NCBI RefSeq assembly: GCF_014191605.1
Contig: NZ_JACHWU010000005.1
Location: forward strand, 62,001 to 126,000
DNA from: Prauserella isguenensis
GTDB taxonomy: Bacteria > Actinomycetota > Actinomycetes > Mycobacteriales > Pseudonocardiaceae
DNA: 64,000 bases
Reading direction: 5' to 3'
The notes under the pieces were generated by a model. The model searched no databases. It had not been told where the DNA came from and saw only the letters and a program-made list of their open reading frames with translations. Within the stretch, counting starts at the first letter, position 1, and each line of letters starts with the position of its first letter. Shown piece after piece: positions 26,752 through 29,644 of this stretch. Position numbers and translations under genes: made by a program.

Positions 26752-27861
26752 TCACCCGCCGAGCCAGGTCATCCGCTGCCCGTGCGGGTCGGCCAGCGCG
26801 AGCGCCTGCCCGCTCGGCGTGCCGTTCTTCCAGGACACAAGGCCTACGGCCGGCCGAGCCGTCGACGCGTAGGCGAGGTCCTCGCGGTGCGGCAGCACGA
26901 GACCGAGCCCGTACTCGTACGGCTCGAGAGACGCCCACCACACCGGCCTCCGCCCGGCGAGTTCACCCAGTGCAGTGACGAACTCGTCGCGGTGCTCCGG
27001 CTCCATGTACATCAGCACGTGACTCGTGAAGACGACGAGGGGCATGCCCTCCGGCACGCGGTCGGCCGCCGTGGACAGGCCACCCGCCGCATCGCCCGCG
27101 ACGAGCTCCGGCACGTCCTTGGCCTGCGCATCCGCGGCCGTGCGCAGCATGCGGATCCGATCCGGCTGGTCGGCCCACACGCACGCCTCGAGCCAGGCGA
27201 GCTCGTCGTCGTCCTGCGCGTCGACCGGGTTGCGGTCGAGGCCGACCTTCGCGCCGACGTTCAGCTTGGTCGGCACCGTCGGCGGCTGGGCCCCGTCGGC
27301 GAGCTCGACCGCACAGTGCAGGCCCACCGGCGTCTTCTTCGGCCCCGCGGCGAGCTGCTCACCACCCGGCAGCCGGTACTGGTAGGCGAACCGGTCCATG
27401 CCCAGCAGCAGTCCGGCGCTGCAGCCGGCCTCGACCAGGCCAACCTTGCCCTTCGCCTCCTTCGCGGCACGCGCCACGGCGGGGTAGAGCACAGCGGCGC
27501 GGTTGACCTCGTTGGTCTGTGTGAAGCGGGTCCGCAGGAGTTCCTTCACCCGGTCACTGCGCTCGAGCAGGAACGTGCGGAACTCGGGCCACGTCGCGCC
27601 GTCCACGCCGTCCATCCCGCCGAGCGACGGGTAGTACCGCGACAGCGGATGGATCGGCTCGGCCTGGATCAGCCGGTGCGCCACCGCCAGCAGCAGATTC
27701 GGGTGCGCGTCACCGCCGGTGCCCGCCTCCAGCAGCAGTGCGGCGACGTCGTCGTCCTCGGCGGCGTGACCCGCGAGGTGCGAGTACAGCGGGGAGATCC
27801 CGGCCGCCTCGTGGTCGGCGAACCGGCGCAGCCGCTCCTTCGCCGTGCCGACGTCAGCCAT
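26752..27861 (-). CDS. DUF2332 protein
   Basis: 369 aa. Sequence landmarks: HPLSRYYPSLGG, VEAGCSAGLLLGMDRFAYQY and VVFTSHVLMYM. GCSAGLLL resembles a methyltransferase-like glycine loop, but no function is established for the DUF2332 family. Stand-alone gene, convergent with the NUDIX gene. Confidence 0.85.
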   Translation of the reverse strand: MADVGTAKERLRRFADHEAAGISPLYSHLAGHAAEDDDVAALLLEAGTGGDAHPNLLLAVAHRLIQAEPIHPLSRYYPSLGGMDGVDGATWPEFRTFLLERSDRVKELLRTRFTQTNEVNRAAVLYPAVARAAKEAKGKVGLVEAGCSAGLLLGMDRFAYQYRLPGGEQLAAGPKKTPVGLHCAVELADGAQPPTVPTKLNVGAKVGLDRNPVDAQDDDELAWLEACVWADQPDRIRMLRTAADAQAKDVPELVAGDAAGGLSTAADRVPEGMPLVVFTSHVLMYMEPEHRDEFVTALGELAGRRPVWWASLEPYEYGLGLVLPHREDLAYASTARPAVGLVSWKNGTPSGQALALADPHGQRMTWLGG

Positions 27862-27963
27862 GCCGCCGCTCCGTCTCGACGACTACCCATGATCCGAACC
27901 GCACGTCAGAGCCCTCCTCGAAGATCCCCCAGCGATGATGCGAGACAACCCTAGAGGTACCCT

Positions 27964-28358
27964 TGACCATCGGCGCGCAACGCGTCAACGCGAGCAACAC
28001 CACGTCGCGTGCAGACCGGCCGGAGGAGGTGAGGAATGCAGATGAGCAGTGACGACAGTCCGCCCAGTACGTCGAATCCGCTCAGTACCCCGAGCCCGCT
28101 CAGTACGGGCACCGCTTCCTCACGCCGGTCCGAATCGGCCTGACTCCCGGCGAGCAGCGCTTCCGACGGTGTCGGAAACCGCACCTCCCTTGCCGTGAGG
28201 CATGCGCCACGGGTCGCAGAGGCGAGTCCCTCGCCTACCGCGGCCCTCACTTCGCTCCAGCGCGGAAGCGGTCCTGAGCACCCGCCCGCGTCGCTGGTCG
28301 AGCACCGGCCCTGCGTGGCACCTCAGTGAGATCCGGCGACACCCAGCCTGGAGAAGCC
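27964..28358 (+). promoter_or_regulatory. Long 5' leader of corA
   Basis: A -10-like TACCCT (27958-27963) would start a leader of about 390 nt. It holds a strong Shine-Dalgarno and a 35-codon ORF (28036-28143), a perfect 7-bp hairpin TTCCGAC-GGT-GTCGGAA (28161-28177) and a GGCGAG-TCC-CTCGCC hairpin further on. No M-box magnesium riboswitch features were recognised. The layout suggests attenuation coupled to translation of the small ORF. Confidence 0.5.
28036..28143 (+). CDS. Proline/acidic leader peptide upstream of corA
   Basis: 35 codons, ATG to TGA, behind AGGAGGTGA, an almost complete match to the 16S anti-Shine-Dalgarno. The peptide opens with an acidic pair and a proline pair (MQMSSDDSPPSTS) and then repeats a P-x-S-T-x-x hexapeptide three times; the underlying DNA repeats are exactly 18 nt (28060, 28078, 28096). 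E. coli MgtL, a magnesium-sensing leader, begins MEPDPTPLP; the resemblance in composition, and the magnesium channel downstream, suggest a sensing leader. Not homologous in sequence; function inferred. Confidence 0.6.
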   Translation: MQMSSDDSPPSTSNPLSTPSPLSTGTASSRRSESA

Positions 28359-29462
28359 ATGCCTGCGATTCCTTCCTTCGGCAACCTGCGGGGCCGCGGC
28401 GGCAGGGGCGTCCGCGGACGCCGCTCCCCCGTGCAGGCCCCGCAGCGCCGGCCGCAGCCGCTGTCGGCGTCCGTCGTCGACTGCGGCGTCTACGTCGGCG
28501 GCGAGCGCAGGCCCGGGACCTGGACGCACGAAGAGGCGGTCCGGGAGGTCCGCGACCGCGACGACGGCTTCGTGTGGATCGGCCTCCACGAGCCGACCGA
28601 GCTCCAGATCCAGGGCATCGCGGAGACGTTCGGGCTGCACGAGCTCGCCGTCGAGGACGCCGTGCACGCGCACCAGCGCCCGAAGCTCGAACGTTACGAC
28701 GAGACGCTGTTCATGGTGTTCCGGACGGTGCGCTACATCGAGCACGAGTCGCCGACGACCGCCAACGAGATCGTCGAGTCCGGCGAGCTGATGGCGTTCC
28801 TCGGCAAGGACTTCATCATCACGGTGCGGCACGGGAACCACACGGGGCTGGCGCGGTTGCGGCGCGAGCTGGACGCCGATCCGGAACGGCTGCAGAACGG
28901 GCCGGCCGACGTCCTGCACGCGATCGCCGACCACGTCGTCGACCACTTCCTCGACGTCACCGACAAGATCGAGGACGACATCGACGAGATGGAAGCCGAG
29001 GTGTTCGCCCCGCGCACCCGCGTCACGTCGGAGCAGATCTATCTGTTCAAACGTGAGGTGCTGGAGCTGCGGCGGGCGGTCTCGCCGCTGGCGACGCCAC
29101 TGCGCAGGCTCTCCGAGGGCTACACCCGGCTCGTACCCGAGGACGTGCGCTCGTACTTCCGCAATGTGCACGACCACGTCACGACCGTCGCCGAACGCGT
29201 CGAGGCGTTCGACGAACTGCTGACGACCCTGGTGGACGCCACGCTGGGGAAGATCACGCTGCAACTGAACTCGGACATGCGCAAGATCACCGCGTGGGCG
29301 GCGATCATCGCCGTGCCGACCGCCATCGCGGGCATCTACGGCATGAACTTCGAGTACATGCCGGAGCTGAACTTCAAGTTCGGCTATCCGCTCGTGCTCG
29401 CGATCATTCTCGGACTCTGTCTGCTGCTCTATCGAATATTCCGGAAGAACCGCTGGCTCTGA
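28359..29462 (+). CDS. corA: CorA-family magnesium/cobalt channel
   Basis: 367 aa. Cytoplasmic N-terminal domain, long helices, and two C-terminal membrane helices with the GMN selectivity motif (YGMNFEYMPEL). Carries divalent cations, chiefly magnesium, inward. ATG 28359 has GGAG five bases upstream; the in-frame ATG 28326 lacks one. Rv1239c is the mycobacterial counterpart, next to lpqY-sugABC there as here. Confidence 0.95.
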   Translation: MPAIPSFGNLRGRGGRGVRGRRSPVQAPQRRPQPLSASVVDCGVYVGGERRPGTWTHEEAVREVRDRDDGFVWIGLHEPTELQIQGIAETFGLHELAVEDAVHAHQRPKLERYDETLFMVFRTVRYIEHESPTTANEIVESGELMAFLGKDFIITVRHGNHTGLARLRRELDADPERLQNGPADVLHAIADHVVDHFLDVTDKIEDDIDEMEAEVFAPRTRVTSEQIYLFKREVLELRRAVSPLATPLRRLSEGYTRLVPEDVRSYFRNVHDHVTTVAERVEAFDELLTTLVDATLGKITLQLNSDMRKITAWAAIIAVPTAIAGIYGMNFEYMPELNFKFGYPLVLAIILGLCLLLYRIFRKNRWL

Positions 29463-29527: not shown

Positions 29528-29644
29528 ATGATCCGCAAGCTCATGGACCTGAAGTTCTGGGGTGTCATGCTGGGCATCGCCTGGCTCGTCATGGTCGTCG
29601 CCCTCATCGCGGTCAACCCCGAGGCCGCAGCGGTGGCCCACTGA
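29528..29644 (+). CDS. 38-residue membrane peptide downstream of corA
   Basis: Begins MIRKLMDLKFWGVMLG, with one hydrophobic helix (about 10-29) and a polar end. GGGGAG lies five bases before the ATG. It follows corA by 65 bp on the same strand and could be a channel-associated small subunit, which is speculation. Codon use and ribosome site support a real gene. Confidence 0.65.
   Translation: MIRKLMDLKFWGVMLGIAWLVMVVALIAVNPEAAAVAH

Follow-up and report, generated by a model that had tools for sequence, protein, structure and literature searches.

A short upstream open reading frame (uORF) and a covarying RNA helix, in which codons of the uORF pair with a strand lying past its stop, are tied to the magnesium channel gene corA across the Pseudonocardiaceae, an association that comparison of related loci makes close to certain. 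Regulation of corA through translation of this uORF is likely, and we hold with moderate confidence that the leader ORF is translated and works as an attenuator of corA. Magnesium is a plausible signal, given the identity of the downstream gene and the analogy with leaders described in other bacteria. The window (the whole stretch of DNA that was analysed, 64,000 nucleotides) carries the following features, in which strands 1 to 4 are the segments of the proposed switch, P1 is the helix of strand 2 with strand 3, and P0 is an alternative helix of strand 1 with strand 2.

27958..27963, + strand: candidate -10 hexamer TACCCT, promoter-like, followed by about 75 nt of conserved 5' leader
28022..28041, + strand: Shine-Dalgarno region of the uORF, strand 1
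28042..28143, + strand: leader ORF of 33 codons, MSSDDSPPSTSNPLSTPSPLSTGTASSRRSESA, with its start placed at the second ATG by comparison
28059..28112, + strand: three imperfect 18-nt units with the core CCG-CYC-AGT-ACN (Pro-Leu/Pro-Ser(AGU)-Thr)
28111..28123, + strand: strand 2, uORF codons ACCGCTTCCTCAC, shared by P1 and P0
28255..28260, + strand: CTCCAG, possible anti-Shine-Dalgarno adjoining strand 3, a 6-bp complement of 28348-28353
28264..28272, + strand: strand 3, GGAAGCGGT, the 3' strand of P1, past the uORF stop
28348..28353, + strand: CTGGAG, Shine-Dalgarno of corA, strand 4
28359..29462, + strand: corA, CorA-family magnesium channel gene (Pfam PF01544, E 4.8e-61)

A first, sequence-only reading of this region had named the next gene as a magnesium channel, and the Pfam match bears this out; the product contains GMN within YGMNFEYMPE, which we take to be a mark of the CorA family. 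The near-perfect Shine-Dalgarno noted in that reading is also present (AGGAGGTGA at 28024-28032, or GGAGGAGGTGAGG as written for the 33-codon ORF), and the uORF ends 215 nt before the start of corA. The 35-codon ORF that it described exists (MQMSSDDSPPSTSNPLSTPSPLSTGTASSRRSESA, 28036-28143, from the first ATG), but its start probably has to be moved. The first ATG occurs in five of the seven genomes of the genus (the window counted), and ACG or other differences are found at its position in the other two and, in the same alignment, in those relatives from other genera that have the site. Because relatives outside the genus are without the first ATG, the second ATG (28042) is likely to be the conserved start, and a start at 28036 was rejected.

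Further upstream, many of the 26 loci inspected have a stretch resembling GAGTACCCT at a similar distance from the uORF, and a sigma-70 consensus scan found no promoter. The 5' leader between 27958 and 28021 is conserved as well (GTACCCTTGACCATCGG..GTCAACGCGAGCAACACCACG in the genus and GTGTGTGAGCGAATCCACCGC in several other loci), and may contain a further hairpin. Two hairpins had been noted between the uORF and corA. The predicted fold of 28000-28360 is, however, ordinary for a sequence of that base composition (z -1.08), and hairpins alone are therefore weak evidence. No intrinsic terminator (a hairpin followed by a U-run) was found in 27860-28400. Similarly, no Rfam family matched the window at gathering score, the best match at E <= 10 within 27700-28600 had an E value of 0.72 and fell under its own gathering score, and nothing was found at E <= 0.1 in nine relatives.

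The evidence for the uORF is instead comparative. A uORF with the same Shine-Dalgarno stands 5' of corA in 26 of the first 30 related loci (the exceptions being L014, L019, L022, and L030) and, in a second set, in 57 of 60 Pseudonocardiaceae corA loci (the exceptions being L154, L158, and L166, all of genus g4). Relatives that lack the ORF or break its frame had been proposed as the check, and the outcome is mostly favourable: summed over both sets, Shine-Dalgarno and start codon are kept at 83 of 90 corA loci and seven are without the uORF, and the length differences among L001-L005 are in-frame steps of 18 nt. A covariance model (R2) built from 54 leaders, which replaced an unused earlier model (R1) with an automatic five-pair structure, matches 311 of 386 Pseudonocardiaceae genomes in 41 of 46 genera, a count that is not independent of the 26 of 30 and 57 of 60 loci above. 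There is one match per genome except in G232, which has two. When 111 matches were compared with listed corA places, 110 lay 43-86 nt upstream on the same strand; the exception (G368:C100:36232-36353) lies about 8 kb upstream of the listed corA on the same contig of an incomplete assembly. Conservation of ORF, Shine-Dalgarno, and position across corA loci thus indicates that the small ORF is real and beyond chance. Genus g4 (L014, L154, L158, and L166) has corA and lacks a uORF of this type in every genome fetched; its corA loci form a natural control group for comparisons of corA regulation.

Outside the family, a class-wide search with the model returned four of 394 genomes at E <= 0.01, two of them Pseudonocardiaceae and two weak matches in family f8, and matches outside the family are at about chance level. 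Of 26 Streptomyces or Kitasatospora loci that were fetched, 15 have a diverged version 5' of corA (MDTGRPCSTGSS, MDPSRPCSTDSS, MDRSRPCSTTRSS, and similar). The same search, covering up to 800 nt upstream of corA, found none in the fetched Mycobacterium, Nocardia, Gordonia, Geodermatophilus, Actinoplanes, and Corynebacterium loci.

The peptides were compared after reducing 113 non-identical loci to 99 distinct peptides. An acidic residue occurs before the core in 86 of these and a proline in 94, and in 85 an acidic residue is followed by a proline within five residues, still before the core, as in MSNDPHPAST, MKNEPHPAST, and MDPAPGSST. The sequence-only reading had proposed a leader peptide linked to corA and marked by an acidic pair and a proline pair. 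The link to corA and the acidic-then-proline order stand, but the pairs do not, since two acidic residues adjacent or one apart occur in seven of the 99 peptides and PP in six. The pairs therefore appear to be traits of few lineages, and the acidic-then-proline order a general trait that is not universal. In 13 of the 99, none of the first nine residues before the core is acidic (for instance, in the MPTAPGCSS type), and five are scored as lacking a proline there: three from Kutzneria (MSSASSRYRVP), which have neither an acidic residue nor a proline before the core, L018, and L013, the last of which has prolines and an altered core codon. In several MSNDPHPAST-type leaders, third codon positions vary while N-D/E-P-H-P is kept, which argues for selection on the peptide.

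It is conceivable, if somewhat unlikely, that the leader is a translation-coupled attenuator that responds, in place of magnesium acting on the nascent chain, to the decoding of proline codons (for example, through the magnesium-dependent, TrmD-dependent m1G37 of tRNA-Pro) or to the relief of proline stalls by an EF-P-type factor. Proline is more constant before the core than an acidic residue (94 against 86 peptides), and in Salmonella, control by magnesium is reported to run through m1G37-dependent codons of the mgtA leader, in the part of PMC6335274 concerned with that leader. Yet the proline codons at this site are mixed (CCG, CCC, CCT, and CCA), whereas CCC/CCU are stressed in the same part of PMC6335274, and the three Kutzneria peptides do without the proline.

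At the core itself, the ORFs of 81 of the 99 peptides have an AGU codon followed by A, and all 99 have AGU somewhere in codons 3-17. The recurrence of AGUA across genera (28102-28105 in the window) exceeds what a serine codon needs, and the AGUA core is possibly an RNA motif or a rare-codon effect. The window's repeats are built on this core. They had been described as exact 18-nt DNA repeats, which they are not: a repeat search links two 18-nt copies that are 78% identical, and three units, imperfect and each with AGTAC in frame, can be recognised by eye (28059-28112). Among L001-L005, the distance from the start to strand 2 is 51, 69, or 87 nt, in frame and in steps of 18 nt, and the repeats are best read as a genus-level duplication of the conserved core.

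The helix that accompanies the uORF begins just beyond the core. In the window, ACCGCTTCC (28111-28119) pairs with GGAAGCGGT (28264-28272); in relatives, the corresponding pairs are CCAGCGTTCCC:GGGAACGCTGG, CCAGCGTTTCCC:GGGAAACGCTGG, CGCATCCC:GGGATGCG, and GCTCTTCCG:CGGAAGAGC. The codons after the core encode R/S/G-V-P/L in most relatives and T-A-S in the window, and residues change while pairing is kept: V-P is replaced by A-S in the window (ACCGCTTCC:GGAAGCGGT), and V by I in L026, L028, and L029 (CGCATCCC:GGGATGCG). The first search for strand 3 had covered the sequence past the stop only, and strand order was therefore checked on alignment columns: strand 2 lies before the stop and strand 3 after it in all 59 relatives with assigned columns, and the spacing from AGU to P1 is 9 nt in 32 of 32 loci of the more distant alignment described below.

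Covariation was assessed in two MAFFT alignments made from sequence alone, A3 (32 distant sequences) and A2 (36 closer sequences). L032, L006, L012, and L052 were left out of both because the leader was partial, carried a long insert, or had unusual spacing; L001-L005, with long leaders, were already outside the redundancy-filtered set behind them. Ten of the 13 P1 pairs in A3 change on both sides, giving 22 such cells against 8.2 in shuffled alignments (0/500), and shuffles as good as the data numbered 0/500 on four of five measures and 2/500 on the fifth. In the same alignment, 86% of P1 cells pair, compared to 35-46% in slid controls; the paired columns were hand-picked on these alignments, so that the slid controls lean toward P1 and the permutation tests are the better guide. 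The effect in A2 is smaller (eight both-side-change cells against 3.0 shuffled, 1/500). For the clade permutations, one random locus was taken per peptide class in ten draws; a corA Shine-Dalgarno could be recognised in 16-18 of the 23 classes. Pairing of strand 2 with strand 3 was supported (p < 0.0002), in comparison to control pairings of strands 1 and 3 (p 0.60) and of strands 2 and 4 (p 0.29, range 0.045-0.549). Additionally, among 15 Streptomyces/Kitasatospora loci and one Kutzneria locus, with near-identical loci unthinned, own P1 partners scored -32.4 against -27.2 for permuted ones (0/4000). Taken as a whole, these comparisons indicate that P1 is kept by compensatory changes.

Single-sequence folding gives a more variable picture. 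The window fold (27960-28395) assigns P1 a pair probability of 0.65-0.99, whole-leader folds place it above 0.5 in 21 of 59 loci (36%), and an early, looser test over wide windows was weak, with p <= 0.05 in 28% of 112 loci. When seven genus genomes were checked separately, GGTGAGG and strand 3 were present in all seven, and strand 2 was intact in six and changed in L012. P1 was unrecognisable in the aligned columns of nine of the 36 A2 sequences, all from genus g25 (L008, L033, L117, L121, L123, L124, L126, L127, and L130), which retain both uORF and core; in this genus, either the position of the partner strand has shifted or the switch is a different one. These nine rows were set aside in the accessibility, whole-leader-fold, swap, and strand-order/spacing tests and in the A2-only permutation.

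A riboswitch-like or protein-bound structured RNA is an unlikely alternative; in it, the AGU(A) core and P1 would belong to an RNA fold, the ORF would be incidental, and peptide conservation would be secondary to that of the RNA. AGUA is found at the core in 32 of 32 A3 sequences and AGU at codon 10 in 33 of 36 A2 sequences. In A2, codons 2-9 are near-invariant, third positions included, except for codon 8. The MSSGDSPLP group likewise shows little third-position variation apart from codon 8, which argues for added constraint on the RNA, and the residues encoded by strand 2 can be accounted for by RNA pairing. Against such an RNA stand the Shine-Dalgarno and start codon kept at 83 of 90 loci, the position of strands 2 and 3 on either side of the stop in 59 of 59, the in-frame repeat units, and the synonymous third-position changes in several MSNDPHPAST-type loci where N-D/E-P-H-P is kept; no Rfam family matches either, though an undescribed RNA would be compatible with that. 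That the uORF product is a functional small peptide, produced together with CorA and with no regulatory role, is very improbable: short peptides with related N-termini are encoded at many loci, but their likeness is mainly in the first ~10 residues, they differ in length (15-39 aa) and toward the C-terminus, and RNA pairing, not peptide function, accounts for the C-terminal R-V-P/L that recurs among them.

A competing helix P0 is supported in the family by sequence comparison. The ribosome-binding site of the uORF itself is complementary to strand 2 (GGUGAGGACGC with GCGUCC[CU]CACC), with ten consecutive pairs in L020 and 8 bp in the window, where GTGAGGAA (28029-28036) is complementary to TTCCTCAC (28116-28123). 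The P1 and P0 segments of strand 2 (28111-28119 and 28116-28123, respectively) overlap at 28116-28119, and since strand 2 fits both partners, the two pairings would exclude each other. Clade permutation within the family favours own over permuted P0 partners (-19.6 against -18.0 kcal/mol, median p 0.0012). In duplex tests, the own strand 1 was better than a swapped one in 52 of 68 cases (25 of 32 within A3), and p <= 0.05 was reached against shuffles in 32 of 68. No covariation of P0 was seen in fixed alignment columns, in our view because the spacing between Shine-Dalgarno and start varies. In the window fold (27960-28395), P0 has a pair probability of 0.00 and the P0 fold lies 5.8 kcal/mol above the P1 fold. 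P0 was not supported in Streptomyces/Kitasatospora (p 0.997), where the pairing of strands 2 and 3 alone is supported.

Which step reaches corA is the weakest link of the mechanism. A family-wide pairing of strand 3 with the corA Shine-Dalgarno is suggestive: clade permutation gives a median p of 0.037 (range 0.017-0.196 over ten draws), or 0.087 for A2 only. No column covariation was found for these pairs, and a swap test gave a weak result: the own strand did better than strands from the other group in 36 of 52 loci, than strands from its own group in 27, and than shuffled strands in 30. Nor did accessibility prediction in 52 loci show that blocking strand 3 raises the accessibility of the corA Shine-Dalgarno: means were 0.28 free, 0.25 with strand 3 blocked, and 0.28 with control blocks, and blocking strand 3 raised accessibility by more than 0.1 in four of 52 loci and lowered it in 12. 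Strand 3 as a general means of hiding the corA Shine-Dalgarno was therefore set aside for now on the accessibility result, the missing covariation, and the swap test. Whole-leader folds of 59 loci pair strand 3 chiefly with strand 2 in 24 and close to the corA Shine-Dalgarno in 15. The CTCCAG hexamer beside strand 3 is present in four of seven genus genomes, and its pair probability with 28348-28353 is 0.00 in the window. Immediately before the corA Shine-Dalgarno, a hairpin (CGUCGU..ACGACG) has 86.5% of cells paired and shows no covariation.

The attenuator that we favour would work as follows. P1 starts 9 nt past the first base of AGU, approximately where mRNA would enter a ribosome with AGU in its A site, and ribosomes might be slowed at AGU with an acidic and proline-containing nascent chain. 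If magnesium is scarce, then ribosomes would stall or drop off before strand 2, P1 would stay closed with strand 3 held, and corA would be expressed. If magnesium is plentiful, read-through would melt P1 and free strand 3, which could pair near the corA Shine-Dalgarno, or the RNA could open to Rho, and corA would be turned down. A more specific version can be entertained tentatively: a four-segment translational attenuator, independently evolved in Actinomycetes, in which segment 2 chooses segment 1 or 3, strand 3 controls the corA Shine-Dalgarno (4), and magnesium is sensed by stalling or drop-off at the acidic-proline-AGU core against the helix. Tandem multiplication of the core in the window's genus might then tune the set point. 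Attenuators of the trp type are built on the segment pairings 1:2, 2:3, and 3:4. The leader described here is similar in that strand 2 has an upstream and a downstream partner between which ribosome position would choose; unlike the trp type, its strand 1 is the uORF's own ribosome-binding site, its 3:4 pairing is suggestive, and it has no run of codons for a single amino acid.

The closest known systems are the corA and mgtA leaders of E. coli and Salmonella, which, in the sections of PMC11552253 on these leaders, have the uORFs corL and mgtL, competing folds, and, for corA, an action of Rho. Translation of corL in E. coli is described there as magnesium-responsive and inversely related to corA expression, in dispute of the view that E. 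coli corA is constitutive (PMC11552253). Here too, a short conserved uORF precedes a magnesium transporter gene within its 5' leader, and, as for corL-corA, mutually exclusive RNA folds can be proposed (PMC11552253). In that account, corL is poorer in acidic and proline residues and its conserved N-terminus contains just one proline, whereas the acidic-then-proline order is common here; Rho control is shown for corL-corA (PMC11552253) and would be one option here. The EPDP motif of MgtL is reported to cause ribosome drop-off at low magnesium, altering the leader fold (PMC11282234, in its part on MgtL). The early acidic/proline motif is a partial likeness to mgtL-mgtA, and MSNDPHPAST-type starts resemble EPDP as given in that part (PMC11282234). 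In contrast, the transporter gene differs, as does the RNA arrangement as far as that source shows it, and the motif is looser, 13 of 99 peptides being without an early acidic residue. By anatomy, the element would work like mgtL and corL while being apparently unrelated to them, a likeness drawn from layout and not from direct sequence comparison, and it is presumably convergent.

Among actinobacteria, an M-box aptamer is reported to control a uORF in Mycobacterium tuberculosis (PMC12810186, as far as its account of that leader extends). Both are small uORFs in the leader of an actinobacterial magnesium gene, but the corA leader here matched no Rfam family. Similarly, the Corynebacterium ilvB-II attenuator, first seen as an RNA motif, has a conserved actinobacterial uORF according to the part of PMC10272879 that treats it; it serves an amino-acid operon, with peptides in which branched-chain residues abound, whereas the present uORF is tied to corA. 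Within the open-licence PMC literature, subscription papers lying outside this scope, no report of a uORF or attenuator 5' of an actinobacterial corA was found, and the word corA is absent from a 50-genome ncRNA paper (PMC11109978).

What appears new is that post-core codons form helix P1 with a strand past the uORF stop, and the element, matched by no Rfam family, may represent a new class of cis-regulatory element. Hundreds of Pseudonocardiaceae leaders with a covarying helix, together with the Streptomyces/Kitasatospora relative, suggest widespread control of corA through translation of a uORF, perhaps with more than one origin. The peptides, some of which lack acidic residues or prolines, also provide natural motif variants for studying ribosome drop-off at low magnesium.

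A second small ORF lies on the other side of the gene. This 38-codon ORF (MIRKLMDLKFWGVMLGIAWLVMVVALIAVNPEAAAVAH, window 29528-29644, + strand), which is 3' of corA and resembles a single-transmembrane protein, matched no Pfam family; its product may be a small membrane protein associated with CorA. Among 58 loci examined (L001-L061), some genomes being counted twice, 27 have a relative carrying a (K/R)FW-type motif downstream of corA, at a distance of no more than about 160 nt.
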